Made by a program: the position numbers and the translations under genes. The notes beneath the pieces were generated by a model. The model had not been told where the DNA came from. It did no database searches and worked only from the letters and a program-made list of their open reading frames with translations. A stretch of 64,000 bases of DNA from Eutreptiella sp. 'Long Island Sound 2002'. Taxonomy: Eukaryota > Euglenozoa > Euglenophyceae > Eutreptiales > Eutreptiaceae. Where the stretch lies: positions 42,450,704-42,514,703 of the forward strand of contig OZ038384.1 of NCBI GenBank assembly GCA_964036045.1, read 5' to 3'. Below are positions 21,963 to 64,000 of the stretch, one piece after another (position 1 is the stretch's first letter; the number at the start of each line of letters is the position of its first letter).

Positions 21963-21965
21963 CTA
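21963..21965 (-). promoter_or_regulatory. Single in-frame TAG between gag and pol of B
   Basis: Gag ends ...GRW, TAG, then AGG TGC CCA. The same frame stays open through all of pol. No other stop and no frame change separates the two, so pol expression by amber readthrough is the simplest model. Confidence 0.65.
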
Positions 21966-44582: not shown

Positions 44583-45285
44583 AGTGAGATTGAGCGCCAT
44601 GGAGTATATATTTTGAACTCAGAATGTACTTTTATTTGAACTCAGAGCGGACTCGGATTAGTCATCATCATTCATCATCATCATCATTCATCATGCATCA
44701 TGTGTCATGTGTCATGCGTCATGTGTCATGACATGCTTTTTTGAATTGTACAGCCACTTTGATGTCCGGACAGGGACACAGCCCTCAATCAGAGTGATGT
44801 GTATAGACAAACATGCTTTGCTCTCCCTAGCAGTATGTGAGGATTGTAGCCATGGAGGAACCTTGGAACTCGCCCTGTCATGGATGGGTAGGGTTGTAGA
44901 GAACTAGGTTGCCTTGGCACGCGCCCGTGTGGGTGCCTGGTTGGTTGCACATAGAACTGGCGGCTTGACAGAATGAGATCAGGATCAAGGGGAGGAATGG
45001 AGGCGTTGTGGTGTGAGACATGGTGAGACGTGAGACGTGGACAACATCAGCCGAGGCTTACTCAAGTGTTGGAACAAATTGGAAGTACTGAGAACTGTGC
45101 AGGCAGGGGGGGGGGGGTGGGATCTGGATGTGGCTCTGAGAACGGAGTGATGCCGGTGGTGGCCTTACCGTAGCAATGGAGCGGTTGCCGCTTCCAAAAT
45201 TGACCTCACAGGTTAAGGGACTCACAGGCCAACTTCAGCGTTCAAGGGGACTGGAACGAGGATCTCAGGGTACTTGGTTAATCTG
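44583..45285. other. Gene-free stretch with an ATC/ATGTGTC microsatellite
   Basis: Contains a CAT/CATGTGT simple repeat at about 44660-44735 and a poly-G run near 45108. No gene seen. It may include the 3' end of the LINE. Confidence 0.55.
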
Positions 45286-46370
45286 TCAACATGCAGCGTC
45301 AGGGCAAACGCCGTTTGTGAGTGGGCTCCATGCACTGGAGTGCTGCTTACATTTAGTCCAGATACCACAGGATTTCCGGGGACGGCTCGCGGGGTTCCGG
45401 TATCCAGAACCAGCAATAGTATTATCCAAAACCTTCAGGTTCATACCAGCAGTGAATGCCGAGGCACCACATGACAGCAATGGATGGGGAAAAAGCCTGT
45501 GAATTGGATGATTGACTGGAAGGGGCAGGGGCCTCGTTATTTCGGACGGGGTTCGCTCTGTGTTTGGCCGAGAATAAACCGAATGCTGGGGGGGGGTAGG
45601 GCAAGCGATGGGGGGGGGTGAAAAAGACTCTGGCGTTGAACTCACTAATGGGGGCGGCTCGGCCGGAGGCAGGGGGGGGGCTGGAGCTCGGAAGAAATCT
45701 GTAATCCGTCGGTTGGAACTGTCAGCGCCGGGGGGTTGGGGGGGTGCCACTGCTTTGAGGGCGTAGGTGTCACTACGTGTTTTGCGTGGTGGAGGGTCTT
45801 CAGTGTCCTGGCTGCGTTTCGTGGGTGGTTGTTTGGGATGCATGGGCATTTTGCTTTTGTGGGTGCGTGTTTTTTTTTAGAGGGGGGGTTGGACTGAGTC
45901 TGGCAGGTGGTCTGGAGGCAGGGGATAGTGGTAATCGCTGTGCGCCTGTGGGGTGTGTGACGTGCTGTAGGTGCTGTGTGGTTTGCCCCAGGTGTTGAGA
46001 CCTTGGGGGGGGGGGCACGGAAGGGGGGGGGGATCTTCGTCTAGCCAAGTGAGTGCTTCGGACAATGCGTCTTTCAACTGTCGCTGGCGAGTGGGGAGTG
46101 CATTCTTAAAAGCCAAAACGCGCTGGGGTTTTGTTTCGCCTGTGGTGGGTGTAGTCATGCCTTCGGACAGGGTGGCAACAAAAATTTGACGAAATTTCCT
46201 TTGTCTCCTCGGTAACCCTAACCCTAACCCCACCAGATGCTTGCTACCTGGTTGAAGGGCGGAGGCCACGCATGTATGAAGCTTTGCACAATGTGGTCAG
46301 CGCTGGGGCAATGAAACAAGAAGGAGGCTGCATCGAGGGGGTGTGACTGTGAGCATTTGTGGCAAATTCA
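45286..46370 (-). pseudogene. LINE pol, C-terminal zinc-finger and Pro-rich tail
   Basis: After RNase H there is a Cys/His cluster (ICHKCSQSHP...FHC, about 46310-46368) like the zinc finger at the end of many LINE polyproteins. A second part (45877-46269) has RRQRKFRQIFVATLSEG. A third (45286-45849) is Pro-rich with NRRITDFF, similar to a PCNA-binding box. A frame change near 46215 coincides with a GGTTAGGGTTAGGGTT run, and a TAA lies in a poly-A run near 45875. Confidence 0.6.
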
Positions 46371-46625
46371 GGGGGTCAAGTCGTTGTGGAAGGCATATGT
46401 AAGAAAATTCATGTTGCCTGATGACCATTTGAAGGGGGGTCCGGAGAACCACGATGAGTGATTGATGAAGAAAAAACTGGACGGCACGTGGATGTTGTAG
46501 TGGTGATGACGGGGGATGAGGGCCCTCGATACAGAGCTGGGCAGGCGCTGACAGACGGGCAAGCTACCGAAGGATACAGTTCCCAGGGGGGGCGGGGGCA
46601 GCAACTCAGGAGAGGATGATGAGCT

Positions 46626-47288
46626 CTATGCAATCCACTTGGAGAACAGATCCGAACATTCATTCCCCTGAAATCCTGCATGTCCTTTGATCCATGCAAA
46701 GTGCGTTGACACAAATGTAGGCATTTGAGCTTGGGAAGAGGAGTAAGCCTTAACCCATGTGCCATGCGATGAGCGTGATGCCATCACGTATGATTGGACG
46801 TTCGCAGTGCGAATCACTTGTTCGTTATCTCCAAGAATGATGCACTGCATGGGTGTGTTTAGGGAGGATACCCATCAAAGAAACATAATGCCGGCCCAGT
46901 ACTCAGATCCCTCAGAGGAATGGTAGGGAGATGGGAGGCACAGAACCAGGATTGTACCGTTGGGTTTGTAGATGGTGGCAGCAGAGCCTAAACCCCCTTG
47001 CCCTGCTGAACCATCCAGGTACACCCAGGTTGTTTCGGAGGAGGCCTCTTGCAGAAGTTGGGATGCTCTGTTGCAGTTCCACGCTTTGAGGTCTTCACTT
47101 CGTAGGCCGTGGCGGGGTAAACCGTGGACCTGGTACAGGTATCCCATTGGTGAGGCTTGTAGCAGGACCCCGTTCAAGGGGGGGGTGGGGTTGTCACGTA
47201 AGGGAGGGCATGCGTTGTAGGACGGGATTAAGAGAAAGTGGTTCCTGAGGATGTTGTCGGGTGCTGCTATGACCGGGGGGTGGATGGT
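46626..47288 (-). pseudogene. LINE pol, RNase H domain
   Basis: Cellular-type RNase H as in several LINE clades: VYLDGSAGQGGLGSA (first Asp), SEGSEYWAGI (Glu), ILGDNEQVI (Asp) and WIKGHAGFQGNECSD (His and last Asp). The frame is the same as the RT segment above, with a TAA near 47290, a TGA near 46875 and a TAG at 46626. Confidence 0.82.
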
Positions 47289-48029
47289 TTAGACGTTTCC
47301 TGAACCCCGGAGGTTGAAGGTTGTGTCGTCCCCTGGGAAGTAAATGGATGCTTGGTCGCAGGAGGTATCAGTCACGATGCCTCTGTGGATGCCAAGGTCT
47401 GTGTTTTGGTGGAGTTGTTTGTTTCCCCACTTAGTAACTCTGTTGTTGGAGTAAGTGGTGAAACGAACATACGCCTGTTCATGTATTTCGAGCAGGTGGG
47501 GTGGGGTGTTGATTTCAGAACTTGTGGTGTTGAATCTTAGGTGGAGACTGTGACAGGCGTCGCTGACTAGCTTCAGGACCATCGAATTTTCCTCGTTGGG
47601 TGCTGCTTGCTGAAAAAGTTGGTTCGTTTCGTCCGGGCCCTCGTTGTTCACGTAACGGATGGCCGCATTGACAGTAGAGGTGTTTAGGCAGTGTTGGAAG
47701 TGGCGCAAGTCAAGTCCTCCATGGGGTCTGGAAGTGTATTTGTCTTTGTTAGACACTAACCTGGAGATCCGGTTGCATTCCTCTGGATCACGGTCAATGG
47801 CAATGTTTTTCCAAATGATGTTTTGCAGGAAGTGAAGCTGTGATTGTTCGAGTGGGTGTGCCAGGAGGCAATATTGGAGAGTGGGGATGAGTTGGAGGTT
47901 CACCAGTCGGATATATTCAGAAAGGGTGAGGTTGAGTGGATGTAAGAAAGTAAAAAAAGACGTGATTTCAGATTTAGTCAGTTCATATGTGAGGGTGGGG
48001 TCGGGATCTGTAAACAGATAGACACCGAG
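47289..48029 (-). pseudogene. LINE pol, RT C-terminal and thumb region
   Basis: Contains YKYLGVYLF, the conserved KYLG block after the RT palm, then LRHFQHCLN within a GGLDL block typical of LINE polyproteins. It continues from the RT core at 50196 once the retroposed cDNA is set aside. Confidence 0.82.
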
Positions 48030-48044
48030 GTATTTGTATACCTT

Positions 48045-50182
48045 TTTTTTGAGACATGGCGGTTTCCTGCCAAAAATTTCATCACAAACTGCTCACCATG
48101 CGAGGTTCCTCGAAGGACAGCCGCGGGTATGAAACCCATACAAATCGATCATGCCACAGCGAAGCACTGCCAAGAGAGGCACCAATAGCCTAGGGAGAGT
48201 GACAAATGGCAGTCAAAATTTTTGCGGCTATCAACAGGTGAGGAAACAGTTTGAAAATGGAGCTGAAAATGACTGAAAAAGATCGTGACAGGCCTAGGTT
48301 TAAAAAGCGACAGAGCAGTGCACACATATGCTGACCCTCCCTACACCGAGGCAAGCGCTGAGAGCGATCAAGGGTTGCGTTTGTGTTCATTACAGGATGA
48401 AATCAGAAGTTTCGCCATATCGGCTGAGAACCAAGGACAGTACTGCTTGCAGGACCATAATCATGCTTTCTGGAAGGCTTTGTGGTTCTGGTGAGCTTCT
48501 TTTAGTGTGGATGTCAGCGTGCTTCTGAGTGAGACATCCTTGAACGTGAAAGCTGCTGGGTCGGGAATGAAGGGCTCCTGTGCCTTTTTGGTCGCCTGGC
48601 CATCGCTGTCAGATGATGACTCCAAGTCTGGCATCTCTCCTTCGCTTGTGTTGGAGTTATGAGTACCCATGCACCAAAACGTTTCTTGTTCCGAAGGATT
48701 GTCGTAATCGAAATCTTTTTTGTTATTTAAGTCATGGTAAGGACGAGGATTGACATCTGGGAGTTCCTCTGCAGAGTCTTGAGATGAGACGGATGTGGAG
48801 TCCCAGAAGGCTCCCGTTGGTTTATCGTCAGGAGTTGTGCATGAGCTTGAGGTCTCTCCGAGTTCCTCCGAGGTCGATCGTCGTATTCTCGCTTTTCTTT
48901 TCCTCGATGTCCTTTGGGCTTGTCTTCGTGCGTGTTTGAGACGCTTGAGTGGGTAGCAGCATCGCTTGATTGCGATTCTTCATCATGGACTTCAGAATCA
49001 ACACGTAGGGTTGTATTTCCCTTGTTCGAAGGAAACTTGCGTCCTATGTGTGATACGTGTGACTGTAGCGTCGGAAAATTCACGTGGGTGAACGATGGCA
49101 CGCGGTCTCCTATCGTGTCTGAGTGGCGTAGAACCGGAGGCGTGAGGTCAGGTACAAACAGGAGGCGTGGAGCTGGATGATTCTTCCGTGTCAAGACTTT
49201 TGTTCCTTGTCTGCATGCTTCGCACCTGCGAGGGATTTGAAGACTTCGGTCAAGGAACCATTTATTTGCTGACTCGGTAATTACGAATTCATTTGAACAA
49301 TTCTTGCATATAGGACGTGGTTCTAGGACTTCAGGCTTTTTGACACAAGGTTTCCATTTCTTGTTCTGGGCGATCTTCCAGCTTCCGGATTCACTCTGAG
49401 TAGAGGTATCGTTATCAGAGCTCTGGCTTCCGGACAGCTGGCTCATGTTCGCTTGAAGGTCTCCATATCCAGACAGATGAGAATCATACCTTTGTTGATC
49501 GTAGTGTTTTTTATTCGGCGGTTGCTGCTTGCTTTTATTGGTGTTTTCAAATTCCTTCTGACAATTTCTGCTTGTTTGGAATCCTCCAGAGAGCGGCTTT
49601 GGCGTTGAAGTTGAAACACTCTTGTCGTTGTAGTTGCTGAAATCAATGGAGGTTTGGTTGAAAGAATTATATAAACCCTCAGCGCTTGCCTGGGGAGTAG
49701 AAGAGGTACCTGGAATATCAGCGATCTCGTCTCCGAGGTTTGCTACCGCGCTCGCAGTCGTTTCGCTTGAAAGGGGGTTTCTGTGTGGAAAGGAGCATAG
49801 ATTTGAGAGAGGTGTTTTGTTTGTTTCATGTCTCTGACGTCTTTGAGTAAAGCTTTGTAGCGGAGCGTAAGGATCATACGTAAATTGAATTTCTGAGTTT
49901 TCGGGATGTTTGAACCAGCACAGATTAGGGCCAAACCGACATTTCCGTAAATACGGGCACGCACGATTCTGTGCTAGCAGTTTGGCGAGAACTTTGTTCA
50001 CATATAAGAGTACTGATAATTGCGTTTCTTCAGGGAAGGTCCGAACGACGTCTGCAATAGCTGCCACTGTCGCTGAACGTTCTGCCGGCATACAGCAATA
50101 AAATTACGCTTTTCAGAATTCTGCTGCCACGTCAATTTCTTCGTTGTTTTGAAACTTCATTTTAATGCGCAACAGCGCAGGC
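48045..50182 (-). mobile_element. Retroposed cDNA (processed pseudogene) inside the LINE
   Basis: Flanked by a 13-bp perfect repeat ATTTGTATACCTT (48032-48044 and 50183-50195). It ends on the minus strand in an A run (T8 at 48043-48050) next to the duplication. It has a 5' leader of about 90 bases, a coding region and a 3' region of about 410 bases, and no LINE or SINE features. This is the structure left by LINE-mediated copying of an mRNA. Confidence 0.82.
48461..50091 (-). pseudogene. Retrocopy of a CCCH and zinc-ribbon protein gene
   Basis: A 454-codon frame (50091-48727) begins MPAERSATVAAIADV. It has a CCCH zinc finger at ~45-62 (C-x5-C-x6-C-x3-H, CPYLRKCRFGPNLCWFKH). A treble-clef zinc ribbon of the zf-trcl type lies at ~265-298 (CKNCSNEFVITES and PRRCEACRQG). 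The rest is Ser/Gln/Asn/Lys-rich and probably disordered. The last part reads in another frame: a second frame open from about 48860 to 48461 has an acidic Ser-rich protein-like composition (EEGEMPDLESSSDSDG-type) and a TGA stop, so one frameshift lies near 48860-48960. The parent gene is not in the window. CCCH fingers often bind RNA; function here is not known. Confidence 0.75.
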
Positions 50183-50195
50183 ATTTGTATACCTT

Positions 50196-50542
50196 CCGGG
50201 GGGCGAGGGCTTTTGGGTCGATGGTTGACAGCCTTTTTCCAGAGGGCGCTGTGATTGTGGTTTGAGGGGCCTTTCCCATGCTGTGGAGTTCGGTTCTGCT
50301 TAGGTTGATGTCTAGGCCCCATGCCCGACCCTTGGAGTCGTAGAAAGATAGGATCTCTTCTATGCGTTGGGAGGATTCAGAGCGGTACTGCAGGTCATTT
50401 ACGAATGCATGGCTAGATTCATGTTGTGTGATGGGAGTGGACAGGTGGTGAGGGACGGCGAATAATAAGACATTCACATACAACACGAACAGGATCGGTG
50501 ATAAGGGACATCCTTTGCGGACGCCCCTGGTTTGCAGGTGTG
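50196..50542 (-). pseudogene. LINE pol, RT palm core
   Basis: Contains TRGVRKGCPLSPILFVLY (motif B) and SSHAFVNDLQYRSES, where the catalytic F/Y-A-D-D reads FVND, then WGLDINLSRTELHSMG. The Asp-to-Asn change would inactivate the enzyme. Bounded by the retroposed cDNA and the TIR transposon. Confidence 0.83.
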
Positions 50543-50548
50543 ATGCAC

Positions 50549-52849
50549 CTAGTGCTTGGTATGAGACTTTTTTTGCCCAAATGAGATGAGCGTTTTTTTT
50601 TCTCGTTTTAATGAACGATTTTTTTTTCCGTTTCATATGAAATGAGCGATTTTTGTTTCTCGTTTCATTTTTTCCGATATGTCTTGACATAGTTGATGTG
50701 ACCAAAAAACAACGAGGCATTGTTGATGTTATCTCCAGGCGGCAATGAGTGCACTTCCTACGATGAATGGTACCCATTGAATAAACATTTTGGCCAATAC
50801 CTCCTTCAAAGAACCTTAATACGTACAACAAACCATTGTTAACACCATTTGTATCATGGTTTGCTTTAGTATTCATTATCTGATATGAAGTCGGAGGCTT
50901 CCGCATTTCTAAATGCCAATGCTACTCATTGGTGAAATGCTTTTGCGACTATGGCATTCAACAAACCTTATCGTCAATAACAACCCTTTTGCTCAACGCT
51001 TTGCTTTACTCTTTACGATGTTGTATCAAGCCGGGGCCTTGTGCATTTTTTAAAACCTATGTTACCCACCGATAATGTGTTTTCGCAAAACAAGCTCTTC
51101 AAGAAATGTTTTGAAATACACCATGCCACACTATGTGAAACAAACCATGGTTTCCATGCTATGTCATTGCTAACCCTTTCCACTTTCTCCTCCTTCTCCC
51201 TTGCTTTGACTAATATTTCAGCAACTTCCATTTTTTTGCAGAATACTTCGCTGGTTTTGAAAAGACTGCAGTATCTCCAATGATTGTTTTCCTGCTTGGG
51301 CTGAAACCTCCTGCTGGTTTTGCATTCAAAACTGTCATTACCCAACAGCGCACAGAACCCTGAGCTTGAACATGCAACAGAGACCGTGAAAACTGAAGCA
51401 AGGACGCATATCAGTGTGTCACAGGCAGGCCAAAAAGGCACACTTCGGAGTCCTGTGGAGCCTCAGGGCCATAGCCGGTTTTCACATGAGTGTAAATTCA
51501 ATCAGAACCACAAACGTGGTACAAACAGAGGGTGGGAAGGCAGGAAAACAGAACTTATTGGTGCCTCCACTGGGAAGCTCCCTCCACTGCTCACTAGCTG
51601 TTATAAGCACGCGCAAACACACGCACGCAGAGACACACACTCACAACAGTACTTTGGTCTCACAAGTTCGTTCTTGGAAGGTCTCCAGGCAGGAGCATCA
51701 AGTCCGTAAAGAAGATCAGTTGTCATGTAAACTTTGAAGCGCCTGGCGCCACGAAGATGGAGCGCCGAGCGACAAAGAAGAAGCCGCAATCGCGTCGAGC
51801 TGCTATTCCACTCGCTGCTGCTCAAGGAGACTGCTCAAGAAGACTTGCACGAAGACTACTACCTGCTGCTGACAGTGCCGTTCAAGGTGTAGGAGTTGAA
51901 GAACTCCTCGGCGAACAACCGGCAAACCCAGATGGCGCGTACTTCAGCTGCAGGTTCCCACGAAGATCTCGCAAAGCACAGTTCTACGTGTCAGGGGTCC
52001 AAAAGAGCAGAGCGAACACACCAAAAATCACGTGAATACGAACACGACAGTGGCTGCGAAAAACAAAACCAGGCACATCAGGTCGCAGCAACTTCGGAGT
52101 GAGTACGGTGAAGCGTTCTCAGCTTGCTGTCGATGAATCTTCAAGAGATGAAACAGAGAAGTGAGACTGGACGTCGTGTTCTTAACATCTCGCTGTAAGA
52201 TCTCGCTGGAAGCACAGAAGCACTAACGCCTGCAACGCTTGAACAAACGGCGCTAGAACAAACGACTCGGACTCCTTGGATGGCAATCCCATACTCGCAG
52301 AACCTCAACGGGACGATGCTACCATGCAACAGAGCGCGCATAATAGCAAGGCATGCTATACAAACAAACCCTGAAGTGACAGTAATCGATAATGATAAAC
52401 ACATACAAACATATAACAACAATCAATCAGAGCAAATATCGAAAACATGAAACCCAAATAATCGCAAATCCTACAGGCGCAATGCATCTGCGACTATCTG
52501 CGCTTACCTCTGCCTGTGACCTCCTGCAGATGTTGTATCAGGCCGGGGCCTTGTGCACTTTTTAAAAGCTCTAGACAATAACAACAACCATCCCAAAACC
52601 TCTAGGAAATACAAGAATGCAAATACCCAAACACCACAATGTCAAAAACAAGGATTGCTTGAGGGAGCGGATTGTTGAGCCTGAAGCATCGCAGTGTCAT
52701 TGATTTGAATGCCAGTTTCTCATTTTCTCGAAAGACAGGGTGTTTTTCATGAAATGAGCGATTTTTTGTTCTCGTTTCATATGAAATGAGCAATTATTTT
52801 GTCTCGTTTCACTTTTTTCGAGAATATTTTTTCTCATACCAAGCACTAG
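50549..52849. mobile_element. 2.3-kb TIR DNA transposon H
   Basis: Perfect 18-bp terminal inverted repeats (CTAGTGCTTGGTATGAGA at 50549-50566 and its complement at 52832-52849), with a 6-bp duplication ATGCAC (50543-50548 and 52850-52855). Subterminal ATGAAATGAGCGATTTTT and TCTCGTTTCA motifs recur at both ends. No transposase-like frame, so non-autonomous. A direct repeat of about 37 bp (51018-51054 and 52529-52566) lies inside. Removing H restores the LINE RT frame. Confidence 0.88.
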
Positions 52850-52855
52850 ATGCAC

Positions 52856-54099
52856 CGCTGTGGCCGTTAACTACCGGGTAGTCTCCTGGAGCTCGGTAGA
52901 TCCCTGGGATGAGACGGATGAGGGGGGAAGGGAGGCGGTAGTGTTCCACGGTCTTAAACAGGGACCCGTGAGGGACACTGTTGAAAGCTTTGTTGAAATC
53001 TATGTAGAGGCTGTATGAAGCCGGGCAGTTTTGGTATTTGGCTAATAGCTGAAAAATGTGATCCGAGCACCGGCGGTTGGGAAGGCCCCCGAACAGGGTT
53101 TTGTGGATCAGGCCATAAAACGAGGAAATTTCGTATAGGTGTTTGGCAGCGTGAGTGGCCACAATTTTATAGAGCGTGTTGAGGAGGGCGATTGGTCTGT
53201 AGTTCACCGGGTCGTGTGTTCGGCCTTTTTTGTAAAGCAAGACCACGTTGGCTTCCAACCACTCATCAGGCATATCATTGGTAAGGTGAAGGTTGCAGAC
53301 AGAGAGCAGAAATCGTTTCAATGGTTCAGGGGAGATGTGGAAGAGGTAACCATTCGTGGAGTCTCGGCCACCCGCCTTTGAAGGTTTGCAGGAGTGCAGG
53401 TAGGAGGTGAACCTGTGCCATGAGATTTCTGGCGTAGGGGTGATGGCAGTGGTGGGGGGGCACTGGGGCGTATGCTGGAGGAGTTCCTCGGCAGTGTGTG
53501 CACTGGGCTCATAGTTTAGAGGACCGTTCAGCGTGAGTAGGGTGTCGGAAAAAATTCCAGTTGGACGTTTAGTGTCACATGTTAGTTTGCCTGTGTTTGG
53601 GTCCTCGAACGAGGCTGCTCGATGTTCCGTTGGGTTTGCCGCTTCGTTGACTGTTGTCTTGATGTTTGATTTTATGATGAGGCACCTGTTTATCTTTGAC
53701 CGTTTAGATTTGTTGTAAGTGTCATCCCATTGGTGGATTGCATCGTTCAATTGTGCCATTCGGGCCGAAAACTGCGGGTGCCTTGGGGGGGGGGCATCAT
53801 TTAACGCCTGGCGAATGGATTGGACGGCTGGGGAGTCGGGTTTGATGCGGGGGGCTGTGGTGTTGTGGTATTGAGCGCTTAGCTCCCGAATGCCCATGGA
53901 GGTGTATTTTTGGACCGTAGCAAGGGGGGTGTTGTTGATGAGAGGGGTAAATGATTGGCACCAATCAGACATTTCTTTCAGTGCATCGTTGAACGTGCTG
54001 ATCTCAGACTTGTTGAGCTTTCTGGAAACACTTTTGGTAATTGTAGATGAGTGGAAGGGGGTGGGGGGGACAGAAAGGGTGCACGAGGAGGGATGGTGA
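52856..54099 (-). pseudogene. LINE pol, RT fingers and motif A
   Basis: The frame at 52856-53972 and upstream contains PDEWLEANVVLLYKKG, VNYRPIALLNTLYKI and YIDFNKAFNSVPHGSL (motif A with its Asp). The N-terminal linker holds KLNKSEISTFNDALKEM. It continues to 50542 across transposon H, and from the endonuclease across element I. Confidence 0.85.
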
Positions 54100-55980: not shown

Positions 55981-56976
55981 ATCAGTAGCACGGTTCTCTG
56001 AGTGAATGCTGGCATCCAAAAGGGACATCTGCTCTAGTGAGGCCGGGTAAATGAAAATGTAGTCTAGTCTAGATGAGCTGGTACGGTGTCATTGTGGATA
56101 TCTGGTGAACTCGCGTGTTGTAGGGTTAGCCAGGTGGTAGGTGTCACCTAGTAGGGGTGGGGTGGCCGTGGCTGAGTGTCTGATCCATGGCCAATGATTG
56201 TCACTCAGAAGCCCCTGGCTGTCCAAGGCGGGATGAATCAGACAATTGAAGTCACCCCCCAACAGGAAGCTTGGAAATTGCTTGAGGAGGGGGCGTAAGC
56301 TGGCTTCCACTTTCCTTCTCCATACCTCGTCTGCAGGCGCGTACACAGGGGCGACTAGGAGAGGTGGTGTACCGGGCAGGGTTAGGAGGCCAGCTGTGAT
56401 GAGTCCATCTTTGTCTGGATTATTGCAAGGGGTGACGAACTGGCTTAGGAGGGGTGAGAAGGCTAAACCGGACCTGTGTTTGTGGTGGGGGGATAAGTTT
56501 GAGAACATCACAGCTCTGTGACCTTTTTGGTTGTAAATGTGGGGCAGGAGGGGTTTTTTTCTGAGTTCTTGAAGGAAAACAACGTCGAAGCCTTGCTTGA
56601 AGTGTTGCAAAAGAAGGGGGGTCGGAGGCTTCTTTTCTGTATTGTGCGTGACGGCACGGATGGTGTGGATTAGGCTTTTGGGTGATGACTTTGCCGGAGC
56701 GTAGCCTTTTTTCATTTTGGTTGTCACTGGGGGGGGGGGGGTTCTTGGGTTTGAGGGTGGCTCGAGTCGTGAAGTATTTGAATTATGTGTTGGACGTGCG
56801 GCAACTGTCGGGGGGGTGGTAGGTTCAAGGTCCGTCGCCGTGAGGTGTGTGAGATCTGGGGGTAAGGGAGGAGAAGGGAAAAAAGGCACGGTGTTCATGT
56901 GGGATTCCACAAGGGTCGAGGCAGACGGGGCTGCGATGCCAGCCCCGATGAGCACGTCCTTCAGACTTTTAACCAT
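55981..56976 (-). pseudogene. LINE AP-type endonuclease domain
   Basis: Apurinic-endonuclease-like fold that nicks target DNA to prime reverse transcription. Motifs: FDVVFLQEL (catalytic Glu), APVYAPADEVW, LLGGDFNCLIHPALDSQG (Asp/Asn), RTSSSRLDYIFIYP and ATDH before insertion I (the final Asp-His). A TGA at 56089-56091 interrupts the frame. The first ~100 residues are Pro/Thr-rich. It begins 40 bases after the AlkB-like ORF. Confidence 0.86.
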
Positions 56977-57016
56977 GGCATTAGCAATGGCGCAATATCA
57001 TGGCGTATCAGAGATT

Positions 57017-57841
57017 TCATTGCGTGTATTGGCCATTTCTTTCATCCATGGTAGTTTTGGGAATTGCATGCAAGTATGACCAGCGGGCTTGTCCTCGCAA
57101 ACATGTAAGCGAACCGGATTCCATCCAGTGGACGTAGGGATGTGCCCCTTTCAAATGGCAAAGGTGCATGGGGACGGGACATCTGAGGTTCAAGTCTAGC
57201 ACATATTTGCCCAACGCTTCGGCATCCACATGATCCCCTATGCCTGAACCAGGCTCGTAACGGGCAACAGTCACTTGGTTTGGAGCATCGATAGAAATGC
57301 CGCGGGAGGACAATTGAAGCAGAATTTTTTCAATGTAAGGCTCGAACTCGGGTGGTAGGTCTTCCAACCGTGTGATATCGGTGCCATTAGCTCCCATTCC
57401 ATATCCAAAGTGCTTCAGATGTCGATGCATAGAGGTGTCCAGATTCGGTTGGAGGTGATCAAACATAGTAATGAGGCTGTCTTCTTCCTCAGCAGTGAAG
57501 AGTTCTGGAAAGTAATCGAGGCCGTCGGGGACTTTGCTAGAGGCGAAATGTGCAGGGGGCATTTTGTAGGGAGCTTCGGGGTTCTCTTCAGGCGGAGGGT
57601 CGTGGTCCACTTCGATGGTGTCAATTCTCTCAGCTTTCTCTTCTGGCGGGGGGTCTTGATCTACATTGATAGCTTCGGAGACGGAGTGCACCTCAGGCAC
57701 AGGATCGTGGTCAACTACGATGGTGTCGGTTTTCTCGGTTTTCTCCACCGGCGAGGGGTCTTGATCTACATTGATAGCTTCGGCGAAATTGTGATCTCTT
57801 TGGGAGTCTGAGATGGCTTTGTTCCCAACTTTTTTATTCAT
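57017..57841 (-). CDS. AlkB-like 2-oxoglutarate/Fe(II) dioxygenase in the LINE
   Basis: 274 codons. AlkB enzymes remove methyl groups from nucleic-acid bases by oxidation. Residues 1-95 are acidic and repetitive, with imperfect repeats around EAINVDQDP (PPEEKAE). The catalytic domain at ~100-265 has LDYFPELFTAEEEDSL, HFGYGMGANG, YEPGSGIGDHVDAEALG (His-x-Asp iron ligands, ~205-207) and GSLTCLRGQARWSYLHAIP (second His ~257), followed by DERNGQY with an Arg in the expected place for 2-oxoglutarate. The ATG lies 3 bases after the stop of ORF1b, and the endonuclease ORF follows, so it is part of the LINE transcript. The frame is intact although the flanking LINE ORFs are damaged. The exact AlkB subfamily and substrate cannot be told. 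Confidence 0.82.
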   Translation of the reverse strand: MNKKVGNKAISDSQRDHNFAEAINVDQDPSPVEKTEKTDTIVVDHDPVPEVHSVSEAINVDQDPPPEEKAERIDTIEVDHDPPPEENPEAPYKMPPAHFASSKVPDGLDYFPELFTAEEEDSLITMFDHLQPNLDTSMHRHLKHFGYGMGANGTDITRLEDLPPEFEPYIEKILLQLSSRGISIDAPNQVTVARYEPGSGIGDHVDAEALGKYVLDLNLRCPVPMHLCHLKGAHPYVHWMESGSLTCLRGQARWSYLHAIPKTTMDERNGQYTQ

Positions 57842-57844
57842 GTT

Positions 57845-58723
57845 TCAGCTGTATGGGTTGTGGGTTTGTGCTTCGAGTATAGGAGTCAGGAATTGTTGGT
57901 CATCCGTGTCCCCTTCGGTCTGAGGATGCATCTCTGGCGGGGGCGATGGGTGGTCGTTGCTTGGCGGTGCCGGACCGGATGTGGTTGGACAGGGAGTGCT
58001 TGAGGTTGACTCGGAGATTTCGGGTGCCGTAGCTCCTGAAGGAGGAAAGAGTGGTGGTGAAGGAGGGGAGGCCATGGAGGTGTCAGCGAGTGTTGGTGTC
58101 TTAGGCATGTTGTCTTCTGTGTCCCATTGGGATATTTTGTCACGCGGGGTCGGAAGTGGTGGGTCGAGTTTCTCTTGGAGTTCCATGAGTTGGGTGACAA
58201 AGGCTCCGGCACCAAGGGTTCCTCCACATTGGAAAATGGCGATGAGGTCGTTGGGGTGTTTTTCGTCAGTGTGCGGTTTGAGGATTTTTTCCCAAGAGAC
58301 ATGGTCCGGTTCGAGGCAACGTGCAGATAATCCCCGGTAGCTGAAGCCATGTGCCAGTAGAGCCGAGTCCCTCTTTTGATCTTTGAGTTGGTATAGAGTG
58401 GCAACGCTAGATGACGTGATCACCTTGTCAATTGAGAGAAAGGGTCCTAGCAAGCCCATAACAATTTTGACCGAACGAAGAGATTCCGTCACCGGCGCGG
58501 CAACTTCAACTAAGCATGGGTCACTCGGCATGCGGACTGGGTCTTTCGGAAGAGGCCATTTGTCTTGGGGGAGAGCCGTAGATGCAAGGGAGGCTGCTTG
58601 AGGTTTTTCATTCCAAAAGGGAACCATGGCGCCCGCCGGTCCTTTGAATAACAAGAATCCATCGTCACAGAATAATCTTGTTGCTACAGTTTGGAGCGGG
58701 GTTTTTTGAGGTTCGCATGGCAC
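57845..58723 (-). CDS. LINE ORF1b, function unknown
   Basis: 292 codons, intact. The N-terminal ~170 residues are protein-like (FCDDGFLLFKGPAGAMVPFW, ALLAHGFSYRGLSARCLE, DLIAIFQCGGTLGAGAF). The C-terminal ~100 are Pro/Ser/Thr-rich. No zinc knuckle, RRM or coiled coil that I recognise. Position before the enzyme ORFs and tight spacing (3 bases to the next ATG) suggest a LINE structural or RNA-binding protein. Confidence 0.65.
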   Translation of the reverse strand: MPCEPQKTPLQTVATRLFCDDGFLLFKGPAGAMVPFWNEKPQAASLASTALPQDKWPLPKDPVRMPSDPCLVEVAAPVTESLRSVKIVMGLLGPFLSIDKVITSSSVATLYQLKDQKRDSALLAHGFSYRGLSARCLEPDHVSWEKILKPHTDEKHPNDLIAIFQCGGTLGAGAFVTQLMELQEKLDPPLPTPRDKISQWDTEDNMPKTPTLADTSMASPPSPPLFPPSGATAPEISESTSSTPCPTTSGPAPPSNDHPSPPPEMHPQTEGDTDDQQFLTPILEAQTHNPYS

Positions 58724-58781
58724 CGCCGAGTAGTCTAGGGTAACTAGCAGACTCGTTGGAATATTTTATGAGAGTTCATTT

Positions 58782-60143
58782 CTACATGCAGTAGCGTGGG
58801 TGGGCCGCAAAATTCCGCCTTGTGATGGACCAAATATCGCCCGCTTTGTCATCGGGGTTGCGAGATTCGCAATCCCGAGAGGGTACAACCTGGAATGTTC
58901 GTAGGCTTTGGAGATCTTCGATACGCATGATGAAAATGTCTCCTTTGGCAAACGCCGGGGAGTTGACCACCGCATTGCGAGGGTAGGTGTCGAAGGGTGG
59001 TGGGAGATCCCAATCATACCTCACAAAACCTTTAAGAGGAGAGCGGAAGTTGCGGATTCCTCCTAGTGGGTGGAAAGCATTGGATGAGTTTATGCTAGCC
59101 GCATCACTCAAACCGCCGAAGGCTCGATTGAAACCCGTTCGCATGATTCTGTTGTCGGTGGGCGAGAAGTCTCCCTGGATTTTTGCGTTGAGAACTTTGG
59201 ATTCTTCATAGAAAGCGCGTAGGGTCTTGATGGAAACCTCAATCCGAACCTTGGAGTTGACCGTGTTGGGTGGTTTGTTGATGCGGGCGTGTTGGAAGGC
59301 TTCGGAGAGAGATGGGTCGTAGACGTTGACGTCAAAGAATTGAATTTCATCCGTTTTGCTTTTACGGCTGTCAAGCCATTAGGCCACGACGGGGAGAGAT
59401 TGTCTGTTTGTTTCGACAACGTTGGGTGTGTTGTTCCTTACCAAAGCAAATTGGTGTTTGGTCTCCTTGAAAATATGGATCTCGGCGATTAAGTCTTTTA
59501 TTTGAACGAGAAACCCATTCATTGTGGGGAGGTAGGACTTGGATGTGACCTCCCTATCGTAGCTCGTAGTAATGAACCATCCACGGGTTGGAGTGCTTGG
59601 TGAAGCAAAGCGGCTTTTCAACAATTCTACGTAGTGTATGGAAGTTTTCACCATTGGTGGCAACCCCGCTTTGTCCATGGGAGGTGCAAGGTAGAACGCA
59701 ACTTCAGGCATGTACTCATCTTTGTGCATGAACAAGTCGTGAGCGGGCGATAGGTAGGTGTGTTGAGTTTGTTTGTTGATGTCTATGTTGATGAAGGCGT
59801 TGGTGAAGTCGGTGCCCCTTAGATCTCGGTCAAACGGATGTCTGTTGTAGAGGAATTGGCGTATGTTGGAGTGTGCAATGAAGAGTTTTGAGTCAACCAT
59901 GCGAGTACCTTCTTCGTAAGTGCCGAATGTGACGTAGTCATTTTCCCAGGATGTTTTTGGCGTAGCCAAGAGTTGAGCGGCACCATAGGTGAGGCCTATT
60001 TGGATTGGAAAAGGGGACGGCGGCGGAATGGTTGGCAATTTGTCTTTTGAGGCAAGACCAAAGAACGACATGTTGTGCGGTGAACGGTGAATGCTCAAAG
60101 TTCGGAAATGGGATGCCAAAGCGTAGGAAATGACGGTAAACAC
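58782..60143 (-). pseudogene. LINE ORF1a, function unknown, one in-frame stop
   Basis: A frame of about 454 codons with a single TAA at 59379-59381. The start may be Met 60143 or Met 60071 (MSFFGLASKDKL). The sequence looks globular throughout (YDWDLPPPFDTYPRNAV, MPEVAFYLAPPMDKAGL) with no low-complexity tail. I do not recognise the family. It ends 58 bases before ORF1b. It could be a second ORF1-type protein or a captured gene. Confidence 0.6.
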
Positions 60144-61013
60144 GGAGTTTGTTCAATATAGAGATAGCGGAAATGACCGTAATTCCAAAGGAAATGACGG
60201 TAAATTCGAAGGGAATTGAGAATCGGCCCAGAACTTGAACAGCCCAGAATTTTTGCAAATCACCGAATAGCCTGGAATATTGGTGGATCCATCCAAAGAA
60301 TTCTGAGCGTCGATCGAAAAGAAATAGACACTCTGAAAGTGAGTGTGTCATGACACGCTGGCGCTGTAGCATGTGTTTTTCACATTTCAACCCAAAACCT
60401 CACTTTCGCTCAGAACTAACACAACCACAACCCCACTCTTATGGGTTCCTAAGAAGAGTATACTATTCATTTTTCACAACTATTCGACTTTGGATGATCA
60501 CATTTTTCTGATCATGGATTGTCATGCATGTCATGCATGATCGACTCATTTTGTGAGTGGTACCACCCATACTACCTTCGAAGGAGTCTATGGCCCCTAA
60601 GGGACCTCTATTTACTCTACAACCCTTTTCCATGGTTGTCCCCACTTTTACATGTATGTTACTCCCTATTTGGTGGGTCCCATGCATGTTTCATGTATTG
60701 GGGGATCCCAAGAGTATACCCAGGCCTAAGCCAAGCCCCAAACACGAGAGGAGAGAAGAGAGATAGATAGAGGAGAGGCGGTTGGCGGCGACACCAGGGA
60801 GCACGTGGTGCTTCCTAGGTAAGTCCTAACTAGGTGTATTTTTACTACTCAAGGAATATTTGTATGGTGAGAGTGCAAGAGAGGTAAGGATTGAACATGA
60901 GTGTAAATAATGATTGTGTTTTATAGTCCCTTTTATTGCTATGGACGACCTGGGATTAACAACAACTATGAGCCCATTACTTTGCATTCTTGTGTGAGGG
61001 TGCCAAATCTGAC
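60144..61013. other. LINE 5' flank and probable 5' LTR/leader of element C
   Basis: A GGAAATGACGGTAA-type phrase recurs three times at 60127-60207. Palindromic ATGCATGTCATGCAT sequence lies near 60523-60540, and a GA-rich run near 60746-60780. The LTR of C should end at about 61013, just before the primer-binding site, but its other copy is outside the window, so its start cannot be set. Confidence 0.5.
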
Positions 61014-61147: not shown

Positions 61148-63106
61148 ATGGACCCTGTGAGAACTCCAAGCAGCCTAGAAGCTACGGGCGCTTCTGAAAA
61201 CGACGTGCAAGTCTTGATGCCTGTCTCCGGTGAGAAACTAGTGGCGCCTACCATGGCCGGGTTTGGAACCCCAGAAGTACCTCTTGACGGATCTCGATTC
61301 GAAGCCTATCGTTTTCCTGCGCCTACATGTCCTAAGTATGCAGAAGCTGTAGCCCCACGTCCAGAGCCTTCAGCGAGTAACTTGACGACAGCTGAACTAG
61401 CGAAAGCTATGGAAGTCCTATCGTTGCTCGACCAGAGTGGTCGGTTGCAACAGATGGTTCAAGAAGTCGAACACCATGAAGGTTCATTTACCAATGCCCC
61501 ACAGACTCATGAGTCGGAGACCACATCGTCTTCGACTAATCCTTTTCAATCCGTGCCATGGCGTTCTAACGTGACTTACGCCACTATGCCTGAACCCCCT
61601 ATCCATGGAGAACCCATTGTGCATGGAGTGCCTACCGGAGTTCCTGAGTCTAAGTTTTTCTCTGAGCCTCACGCTCCGAAAAGGCCTCATGTTTTCAAAG
61701 CCTCTCCTTCTTCGGAAGAGAGGACTATCCTTTTCTCGACCTTGCAACAACTCAAGGGTCATCTTGAAAACTTAGAAAATAGGACTAGTGCTAACTTAAC
61801 CACTAACCCTTGTGTCCCTTACAACCCCTCTCCTCTAACCCGAGTGTGCACCGGGCTGGCCGGTGTGCCTCCCAGAGTCAAGTTGCCCTTTGTACCCCGT
61901 ACCAAAGCACCCAAACCCGTTGCGTGCTTTACCACTACCTACGAAGTTTACACCCTCGACCAAGCCCTCGCCCTAGGACTCGGTCCACTAGTGCCTATGG
62001 CACTACTCCCCGACCCCACACAACCGGTGCCACATACCGGTAGAGGAACCAAAGCTTTTTTCAAACCCCAAACCGAAACCAAACTACTCAAGTTTTCGGG
62101 TAAAGACCTCGACGTTTACGCCGAAGATGTTTTGAGGTTCTTGAGGTCGACGGGACAGGAAGACCTCAACGAAAGAGCCAAAGCGGACCTCCTTATCAAC
62201 GGTTGTGATAACAAGGACGTGAAAGAAGTGGTTTCGGGGGCGCTCAAGGAAAGTGACTCTTGGGTAAGGTTCCTTATCACGCTCGAAAAGCTCTACTCAA
62301 CTTACGTTACCGACCTAGACCTTATTCTAGAGATAGAGCATATCCCTCGGTTGAAGGAATACCCGACAACCGCGGACATAGCCCAATACGTCCAAAGGTT
62401 TACTACACTTACGGACCAATTGGCTACGTCCTACTACGACGACTCCAAAGCCCTCTTACACCTCCTGCCCCGTGTTCCGCCAAAGACCATGGACGAAATA
62501 CGGGCTACTCCCGTGAGGTTGTCTAGGATACACACCTTCAACTCTCTCGTTGACCTCCTCTATGAGTTGGCACTTCAGAGAAAGTCGGACGCTACGCTCA
62601 AGAACTTGCACTCTATGGCGCAGTTCAAGTGGCTAGACGGCAACGCCAACACCAACGCCAACGCCAACAAGGATCAAGAGGAAGCTTTTGCCCACTCGTT
62701 GTGTGAGGAGTGCTTTGTGGTCTTTCAACAAGCACGAGGACAAAGACAAGGCAACGGCAACCGTAGTGGTGGTGGTCGTGGCCGTGGAGGCAGCAGTCGT
62801 GGCAAGGGTCAAGGCCATGGACAATGGTATTGGCGAAGGCAAGTCGAAGAGGACAACTCTCAAACGCCCAAGTTTTTCGCCACCGTGTTTTGCCCCAATT
62901 GCGGAACAAAGCACAACGTGAGGGCCAAGGCGTGGCAAGAGAGCCTTGACGCTCGAAAAAAAGACCAAAAGAACACTAAGAAAAGTCAAGGCAAAAGAAG
63001 GAAAGGACCAAGCAAAAGGAGGCTCAAAAGGAGAAGAAAAAGAAAGTCGAGGAAAAGCAAACGGAGGAAAGGCAAACAAAGGAAAAGGAGGCAGAAGAAA
63101 AGGTGA
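61148..63106 (+). CDS. gag: C Gag polyprotein
   Basis: 652 codons from the first ATG after the primer site. Pro/Thr/Ser-rich N terminus, then a capsid-like region at ~310-490 (LLKFSGKDLDVYAEDVLRFL, IEHIPRLKEYPT, LVDLLYELALQRKSD) that aligns with A1 ~410-610. An Asn-rich and an Arg/Gly-rich stretch follow. The knuckle region has only CPNCGTKH and lacks the last Cys of the CCHC pattern. The end is Lys/Arg-rich in two frames: the frame 62946-63251 continues a similar composition to DFLAGETQGEG and a TAG. One frame is original and the other follows a frameshift near 62960. Confidence 0.85.
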   Translation: MDPVRTPSSLEATGASENDVQVLMPVSGEKLVAPTMAGFGTPEVPLDGSRFEAYRFPAPTCPKYAEAVAPRPEPSASNLTTAELAKAMEVLSLLDQSGRLQQMVQEVEHHEGSFTNAPQTHESETTSSSTNPFQSVPWRSNVTYATMPEPPIHGEPIVHGVPTGVPESKFFSEPHAPKRPHVFKASPSSEERTILFSTLQQLKGHLENLENRTSANLTTNPCVPYNPSPLTRVCTGLAGVPPRVKLPFVPRTKAPKPVACFTTTYEVYTLDQALALGLGPLVPMALLPDPTQPVPHTGRGTKAFFKPQTETKLLKFSGKDLDVYAEDVLRFLRSTGQEDLNERAKADLLINGCDNKDVKEVVSGALKESDSWVRFLITLEKLYSTYVTDLDLILEIEHIPRLKEYPTTADIAQYVQRFTTLTDQLATSYYDDSKALLHLLPRVPPKTMDEIRATPVRLSRIHTFNSLVDLLYELALQRKSDATLKNLHSMAQFKWLDGNANTNANANKDQEEAFAHSLCEECFVVFQQARGQRQGNGNRSGGGRGRGGSSRGKGQGHGQWYWRRQVEEDNSQTPKFFATVFCPNCGTKHNVRAKAWQESLDARKKDQKNTKKSQGKRRKGPSKRRLKRRRKRKSRKSKRRKGKQRKRRQKKR

Positions 63107-63286
63107 CGACAAGAAACCTCCGGAAAAGAAACGCTTGGAAGAGTTGTCGGAAGGAGAGCGGGAGAAGAAGCGTAAGAGAGTTCTCAAGCTTGGAAGGCAA
63201 TCGAAGAACCTCAAGGACTTTCTTGCAGGAGAGACTCAGGGGGAAGGCTAGGTGGACACCAAGACGCACCGAGGTATTGCTACCTA

Positions 63287-64000
63287 TTGAGGGTCGCTAT
63301 TAATGGTGTATGGGTGGACGCATACCCTGATACCGGCGCTACAATCTCCCTAGTCTCCTCTAGGTTCGTAAACTCCGAGGACCTAGTTCCCATAACTATT
63401 TGTGGGGTAAAAACGGGAGAAGGGGGAGTCACTCTCACCGAAGGCGAGATAGAAGGAGAAGTACAAGTGGGGGACGGAAAGGTACTTCAAAAGTTTCAAG
63501 CGTTCGACACCAACGCCTTTGAAGCCGTATTGGGGACGGACTTCTTTGCGCAAAACGAGTGTATAAAATATTTATCGCTTCAAGAGCCCACTCACTTGCT
63601 GGTTGTGAACGAAGGGCAGAAATGGGAAGCAATACCCCTCAAGGAGACAAAGTGTCCAAGACCTACGCTCAAGACTCTCAAGAGTTTTCCGTTGGCACTC
63701 GATAGCGAGGTGATACAAGAGAGTATCCTCGCTACCTTGAGCCTACACAGAACGGAGAACTACACTCTCAACTCCGCCGCCAAGCGTGACGCGTTTCGAG
63801 AACTTTGCCTTAACCCGAACATGTGTAACCGCGACTTTGTCGAACTCTTTGCGTCCAAAGAGAACGCCAACGCGGACTACTTTTGTACTTCCAAGACCAA
63901 CAACACGTGGTGGTATGATTGGGGAACGTTGGGAGCTTGGAAGATGCTCTACGCGAACCCCCCTTTCTCAAAATAACTCCACACGTTGGTGAATGTCGAT
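63287..64000 (+). pseudogene. pol: C pol: protease and start of methyltransferase-like domain
   Basis: The protease has YPDTGATISLV and FEAVLGTDFF, as in family A (DTGATISIV, FDFVLGTDFF). The linker leads to CNRDFVELFASKEN and LYANPPFSK, the counterpart of A1 VELFPSDK and GYNPRF-type GNPRFSEL. A TAA (63974-63976) follows Lys and interrupts the domain; the same frame then reads LHTLVNVD, which still aligns with family A. Upstream the join to gag needs a frame change. The first codon used (TTG 63287) is arbitrary. Confidence 0.82.

Follow-up and report, generated by a model that had tools for sequence, protein, structure and literature searches.

AlkB-type dioxygenase domains in ORF1 of several LINE families of a Eutreptiella genome

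A decayed LINE copy and its AlkB-type ORF

The stretch of Eutreptiella DNA analysed here (the window, 64,000 nucleotides) contains a long LINE copy on the minus strand. The copy runs from position 60341 down to 44737 and lies between two 12-base target-site duplications, TGTCATGACACA, the 5' one at 60344–60355 and the matching 3' one at 44722–44733. Its 5' end is a spliced-leader sequence, CACTTTCAGAGTGTCTATTTCTTTTCG (60315–60341), with two differences from the Euglena spliced leader, and homology to nine other copies begins at the 60341 end or within 2 bases of it. Behind the leader come a remnant of ORF1 (57845–60143), an AlkB-type domain ORF that forms the C-terminal part of ORF1 (57017–57841), a relic of the ORF1 C terminus with the Arg motif (56969–57016) and the start of ORF2 with its endonuclease region (Exo_endo_phos, 56089–56976). 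ORF2 resumes at 52849–54099 with the end of the endonuclease and a first part of the reverse transcriptase (RT; RVT_1, E = 1e-10), continues with a second RT part at 50179–50549 (RVT_1, E = 1.8e-9) and finishes at 44737–48044, where its remainder is followed by the 3' end and a short A tail; in the sister copy L015 this last part includes RNase H. All of these features are on the minus strand. The ends of the copy show no long direct repeat and no flanking LTRs.

Three later insertions sit inside the copy (55976–54100, 52848–50550 and 50178–48045). Because of them the endonuclease and RT frames are broken, and they account for part of the stops noted in a preliminary description of this DNA. 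The first, within the endonuclease, consists of about seven 184-base direct repeats flanked by inverted ends (CACCTAGGATTTT...). The second has inverted ends TAGTGCTTGGTATGAGA and TCTCATACCAAGCACTA. The third has a short duplication at its ends and holds a 454-codon ORF with a match to zf_Tbcl (PF13451, E = 2.3e-6), probably a treble clef. Elsewhere in the window, positions 16986–26108 hold a Ty3/Gypsy-type element in which a 1,381-codon ORF without a Pfam match precedes a 1,638-codon ORF with RT, RNase H, integrase and chromodomain. Beside the 5' flank of the LINE, on the plus strand (61148–63976), lie a Gag-like ORF that Pfam does not match firmly and a protease of the aspartyl class as in LTR elements.

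The 274-codon AlkB-type ORF matches PF13532 (2OG-FeII_Oxy_2) in Pfam with E = 1.2e-9 and 39.1 bits, above the curated cut-off of 31.2 bits. This match is far beyond chance, because a search of the genome with the window protein gave at least 143 matches, at identities down to 36%. The AlkB assignment made in the preliminary description therefore holds, as does the placement it gave: the ORF is flanked by the ORF1 remnant and the endonuclease ORF, all on one strand, with a 3-base gap (AAC) after the upstream stop. The endonuclease ORF itself matches PF03372 with E = 1.8e-4 and 21.8 bits, below the cut-off of 24.5 in the window copy and above it in copy L010.

Both ends of the AlkB-type ORF are acquired stops. 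The upstream ORF (57845–58723) shares its frame, and the codon separating the two (57845–57847) is TGA in the window copy and CCA in all seven other copies read across it (L002–L008). Farther upstream, the ORF1 remnant is broken by frame changes and stops, the ORF1 of family A, the family of the window copy, being open elsewhere. At its other end the ORF terminates at a TGA immediately before the motif RYAMILR, of which the opening Arg codon is itself TGA in the window copy. Directly past this stop the other copies read, with small changes, RVLRYAMILRHCECHG, and in 7/7 the ORF1 frame continues to CHG or CHD and then stops. The last 16 codons of the ORF1 relic have acquired three stop codons in the window, and one of these replaces the opening Arg of RxxxxxR. 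Because these stops cut the ORF before RxxxxxR, the 2-oxoglutarate (2OG)-binding Arg motif is lost; HxD and the distal His are kept.

Judged by comparison with its relatives, the window ORF is a fragment of a longer ORF1 lying between two acquired stops. It had been called intact, which it is not, and the remark that it stays open while its neighbours carry stops is misleading, because acquired stops bound it at both ends. The HxD and distal His of the ligand set first ascribed to it are present, and the Arg of that set is cut off. Nor does it stand alone: in less decayed copies of this LINE type AlkB is the C-terminal domain of ORF1. A stand-alone AlkB gene was considered and rejected, the stops of the window being missing from all seven other copies. 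The window AlkB is thus evidently a decayed example of an ORF1-borne domain.

AlkB in other copies and other LINE families

Less decayed copies of family A give the architecture. Among nine long family A loci (L009–L017, window copy excluded), seven (L009–L015) have ORF1 and AlkB in one open frame of 1,111–1,289 codons with AlkB C-terminal; the open frames of L016 and L017 are shorter (782 and 562 codons). Endonuclease, reverse transcriptase and RNase H follow ORF1-AlkB in that order. In six of seven other copies the ATG of ORF2 shares bases with the stop codon of ORF1 (ATGGTTAA); the seventh (L007) reads ATGATTAA. ORF2 of L010 matches both PF03372 and PF00078 above their cut-offs, which gives it an endonuclease and a reverse transcriptase and places the element among the LINEs; the ORF2 sequences scanned contained the endonuclease and no integrase. 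The closest solved reverse transcriptase, in a search of solved structures, is human L1 ORF2p (E = 4.1e-22). Target-site duplications, with an A tail, measure 16 bases in L009 and 12 in the window copy.

Family A is one of several families with AlkB. A PF13532 search of the genome, which yielded 1,107 first-look candidates of which 150 were scored, found 151 places, the longest open frame among them reaching 1,546 codons. Thirty loci were cut out from it; 14 (L041–L054) belong to family B, and the remaining 16 resemble host genes or were left unassigned, as judged by eye. In families B (L055), C (L056) and D (L019), ORF1 ends in AlkB and ORF2 lies behind it. Family A' (L018) has AlkB in a 404-codon open piece, ORF1 being broken in this copy, and in family F (L071, L072, L081, L082 and L085), found via its 5' end, tblastn places AlkB and then the start of the endonuclease. 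A separate AlkB ORF, as first proposed for the window's LINE type, does occur in family E (L057 and L058), where it follows ORF2, downstream of the end that carries RNase H (identified in L058). PF13532 scores are 38.7 bits for L010 and 31.5 bits for L018, against the cut-off of 31.2, and places of families B, C and E are also above it. Several very different LINE families of one genome thus carry AlkB, mostly joined to ORF1.

Family D departs from this pattern. Its ORF1 (L019) has no Pfam match at all, and its AlkB was assigned by alignment to the other families and by E = 6.7e-23 in the window-protein search of the genome. At L019:1895-4729 the domain has HxE for HxD, and His for the first Arg of RxxxxxR (HxxxxxR). 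Because of these replacements and the lack of a Pfam match to ORF1, this one family may be altered or inactive.

The ORF1 parts before AlkB are 20–27% identical among families A, B, C and D and alignable along their length; AlkB shows 23–35% identity in comparisons among families A–E (70% from A to A'); between A, B, C and D the endonuclease is 31–36% and the RT 38–49% identical. On these identities the ORF1-borne AlkB is evidently old in this LINE lineage. A tree of AlkB domains (19 rows; of 27 sequences, 8 were first dropped because they were partial, nearly duplicated another row or only added to family B) puts the LINE sequences on one side together with L033, L039 and L040 (96/95). Families A, A' and D form one clade (98/95), and C joins L040 weakly (85/75). 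The rows beyond the LINEs are AlkB places of the same genome, of which L039 is ALKBH8-like by eye only.

Searches of protein collections returned 22, 26 and 1 relatives, two of these searches having scored only the 7,996 and 7,979 candidates that shared most words. All but one of the proteins come from the source 'ena', and those 'ena' proteins whose sequences were compared are pieces of the same LINE families. The sole relative from elsewhere (P0032, source 'lgn') is 25% identical. One 'ena' entry, P0033, is a family B ORF1 cluster of 110 member proteins with 769 residues.

The metal- and 2OG-binding residues are widely kept. In 14 family A copies including that of the window, the first His is present in 13 (Tyr in L014), the Asp and the distal His in all 14, the first Arg in 12 (a stop in the window, Gln in L006) and the second Arg in 13 (His in L008); in family B, 14 of 14 distinct copies have all five. 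HxD, the distal His and RxxxxxR are all present in the copies used as reference for families A, A', B, C, E and F; the set is incomplete in the window copy, which is truncated before the Arg motif, and in family D.

Profile and fold comparisons agree on an AlkB-type enzyme. A profile of nine AlkB sequences from families A–E finds human ALKBH8 (3thp) with E = 7.1e-34 and NMAD-1 with 5.6e-14. The predicted model of P0005, which comes from 'ena' and belongs to the same family, has the double-stranded beta-helix of the AlkB type, at pTM 0.60 and mean pLDDT 65, with 129 of 255 residues at pLDDT of 70 or more and the first 66 residues disordered; an earlier model, of P0007, was poor (pLDDT 38.9). 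The best 50 of the 329 PDB matches of the P0005 model (E ≤ 0.001) are all AlkB enzymes, among them NMAD-1, ALKBH8, ALKBH6, ALKBH5, AlkB, ABH2 and Ofd2. The top match is C. elegans NMAD-1 (7.2e-12), whose entry name is DNA N6-methyl adenine demethylase, and the title of the ALKBH8 entry speaks of tRNA hypermodification, not of methyl removal. Members of the ALKBH8 subfamily have an RRM ahead of AlkB and a methyltransferase domain after it. A Pfam search of the L010 ORF1 found no methyltransferase domain, and this ORF1 ends shortly after AlkB. The region of ORF1 before AlkB looks RRM-like by eye and has 0 hits in Pfam and PDB.

Substitution rates point to constraint on the domain. The dN/dS comparison suggested in the preliminary description gives 0.27 for AlkB in family A (14 copies), equal to the endonuclease (0.27, 12 copies), with 0.20 for the RT (8), 0.26 for the N part of ORF1 (9) and 0.34 for its middle (14); these are pairwise Nei-Gojobori values from related copies, pseudogenes included, picked by similarity. 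In family B, where copies were picked by PF13532 score, which favours conserved residues, the values are 0.19 for AlkB (15 rows, L045 and L055 being the same copy), 0.28 for the ORF1 middle and 0.38 for the endonuclease (14 rows each). Between the AlkB domains of A and A' synonymous sites are saturated (pS 0.80, pN 0.20). AlkB is thus, on these estimates, under purifying selection and held as firmly as the endonuclease.

The spliced leader at the element 5' ends

The elements begin with the spliced leader of their host. PMC6242988 gives ACTTTCTGAGTGTCTATTTTTTTTCG as the invariant spliced leader of Euglena gracilis, identical in E. longa. The present genome has 5,926 matches to the leader with at most two mismatches, against 0 for the reversed pattern. 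The element starts read in families A (10), B (3), C (3) and D (1) all open with CACTTTCTGAGTGTCTATTTTTTTTCG, intact or decayed, and their flanks differ; the family C starts were placed by the leader region and the distance to the AlkB place (L063, L064) or by AlkB (L074). The leader is exact in only 3 of the 10 family A starts. On C1, an exact leader lies within 4.5 kb upstream of 5 of 17 AlkB places from the PF13532 search (expected 0.001 each) and of 0 of 15 places from the window-protein search. Four sites near the start of C1 resemble spliced-leader (SL) RNA genes, three with GT after the leader (L060, L069 and L070) and one with GA (L059). Insertion of the elements into SL RNA genes was considered and rejected, the flanks of 12 element starts differing by eye.

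The base before the leader varies in a restricted way. Copies started by the leader are the window copy (60315–60341), L009–L017, L019, L055, L062–L065, L067, L068, L074–L076 and L078; they have C before ACTTTC, A or T before that C and, in most, ATT...CAG after the leader. All 22 LINE starts read have either A (9 starts) or T (13) directly before the constant CACTTTC, and 4 of 4 SL RNA genes read have A there. Five leader sites of unassigned kind have G (L066, L077), A (L073) or T (L079, L080). Because the SL RNA genes have A at this place, T there could be the trace of a misread methylated first A; a preference for A or T at the target site explains the base equally well. The T of L009 falls inside its own target-site duplication.

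One pair of copies bears on how the leader is kept. L064 (C1:95165990-95166150) has the leader, then attgaccctcag, then aaatttattgatgg, and L063 (C1:82373440-82373600), an element of the same kind, has the leader joined directly to aaatttattgatgg, without attgaccctcag. Because the L063 junction matches the product of splicing at that CAG, this single pair suggests that the leader may be renewed by trans-splicing. Two other sites were noted. L061 (G000:C1:62485300-62485500) has two tandem leaders at a spacing of 42 bases, and the 15 bases that precede the leader are repeated (gaccatgttcactga); L077 has a leader followed by a possible coding-sequence start and is possibly a retrogene of a trans-spliced mRNA.

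Tracing downstream from six LINE-type starts (L067, L068, L074, L075, L076 and L078) reached AlkB in 6/6. These starts were chosen from spliced-leader sites for a LINE-type 5' region and a downstream part new to the analysis; sites of other kinds (L066, L073, L077, L079 and L080) were left aside, and leader-bearing elements without AlkB may therefore exist. AlkB lies at the expected distance in all six. In five it was found by tblastn: L067 (L071, L085), L068 (L072, the C-terminal part of AlkB), L075 (L081), L076 (L082) and L074 (L084, a family C AlkB with the first His changed to Tyr). The sixth, L078, leads to L083, where AlkB is recognised only by its tail, in the same shifted frame as in L072. 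Copies without the AlkB ORF, a case that the preliminary description had raised, were therefore not met among these six, a sample of five family F starts and one of family C recognised by a 5' region common to AlkB-bearing families.

A possible role, and known systems

LINE ORF1 proteins coat and package the RNA of their element, and m1A, m3C, m3U and dimethyl-A stop or mislead reverse transcriptases. Our preferred reading, which we give an even chance of being right, is that the window holds the decayed C-terminal domain of the ORF1 of an endonuclease-type LINE, and that AlkB borne on ORF1p oxidises methyl groups on the element's own RNA. The evidence reaches as far as conserved residues, a modelled fold and selection on the domain, and we infer enzyme activity, RNA as substrate and a benefit to copying. 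ORF1p would consist of a long N-terminal RNP part and a C-terminal AlkB-type Fe(II)/2-oxoglutarate dioxygenase, and ORF2p would bring endonuclease, reverse transcriptase and RNase H. Binding of the mRNA, with the spliced leader at its start, by ORF1p would put AlkB on the template, where it would oxidise base methyl groups of the bound RNA. The result would be a methyl-free template for the reverse transcriptase, or the erasure of m6A-type marks used by the host. ORF2p would then copy the entire RNA at a nick in the target, with a target-site duplication of about 12–16 bases as the result.

The same domain could serve other ends. It is possible, if unlikely, that AlkB acts on DNA, removing N6-methyladenine or oxidising methyl marks on LINE DNA or its target and so countering silencing. 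The best fold match, NMAD-1, which is named a DNA demethylase, speaks for such a substrate; the sequence profile nevertheless prefers ALKBH8 to NMAD-1, and the domain rides on ORF1p, in LINEs generally the RNA-packaging protein. Another idea is that AlkB serves ORF1p chiefly by binding RNA or as a structural module, with catalysis dispensable. We consider it unlikely: family D, which deviates from both HxD and RxxxxxR, would fit it, but the metal- and 2OG-binding residues persist in the reference copies of the other families in spite of the low AlkB identity between families A–E.

ALKBH8, the nearest solved sequence relative, raises the further thought of a tRNA modification that improves translation of the element mRNA. 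Its chances are slim, given that the L010 ORF1 lacks the methyltransferase domain and that the RRM search gave 0 hits. As for a single captured host gene, or a host AlkB pseudogene next to a LINE, the window copy taken alone would be compatible with either; the 143 or more matches in the genome, their spread over several families and the purifying selection refute a one-off capture, and we give it practically no credence.

A special case of the preferred reading, action of ORF1p-borne AlkB on the element's own RNA, concerns the methylated 5' end. Here the LINE's own AlkB would strip RT-blocking methyls from its mRNA, cap-near spliced-leader nucleotides included, with the whole leader copied each time. 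This is a long shot, because the author of PMC5491325 knows the heavily methylated cap 4 from kinetoplastids only, and the Euglena spliced leader is reported to bring a trimethylguanosine cap (PMC3388326).

Searches of the open-access PubMed Central literature turned up no description of a LINE with an AlkB domain, an unnoticed entry in a repeat database being possible; the main texts of PMC12455990 and PMC11252322 contain no word beginning with AlkB. For the related Diplonema, the accessible part of PMC10161547 describes a dozen homologs of the AlkB type and, in a separate context, ORFs resembling LINE-1, without a link between them.

Should the enzyme be active, methylated RNA bases would be an obstacle that LINEs have had to overcome, with a retroelement protein doing this in cis. 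Parallel gains of AlkB in plant RNA viruses, in the orchid Ty3/Gypsy elements and in these LINEs would then mark RNA methylation as a general line of conflict between parasites and the genomes they inhabit. The role of AlkB can be tested in this host on numerous LINE families, which have open frames and a 5' end that is defined, and the elements add a LINE lineage that bears its host's spliced leader at the 5' end.

Several known systems share part of this design. AlkB domains occur in plant flexiviruses, likewise RNA-copying parasites, but there as part of virus replicases and not of LINEs. Orchid (Phalaenopsis) Ty3/Gypsy retrotransposons have an ALKBH5-like ORF, whose AlkB protein binds RNA and demethylates m6A in vitro (PMC9289625); those are LTR elements with an ALKBH5-type domain in its own ORF, whereas here the domain is ALKBH8-like, fused to ORF1 and found in several LINE families. 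The ALKBH8, ALKBH6 and S. pombe Ofd2 group (PF13532) shares HxD...H...RxxxxxR, the modelled double-stranded beta-helix and, for ALKBH8, the profile match; in our case the domain ends a LINE ORF1 protein, in L010 with no methyltransferase domain. Endonuclease-type LINEs with RNase H have the same enzymes (endonuclease, RT and RNase H), target duplication and short A tail, but here ORF1 ends in AlkB and the 5' end is the host spliced leader. Finally, SLACS and CZAR of trypanosomes are also euglenozoan LINEs tied to the spliced leader; they insert into SL RNA genes, whereas in the Eutreptiella elements the spliced leader is the element's own 5' end.
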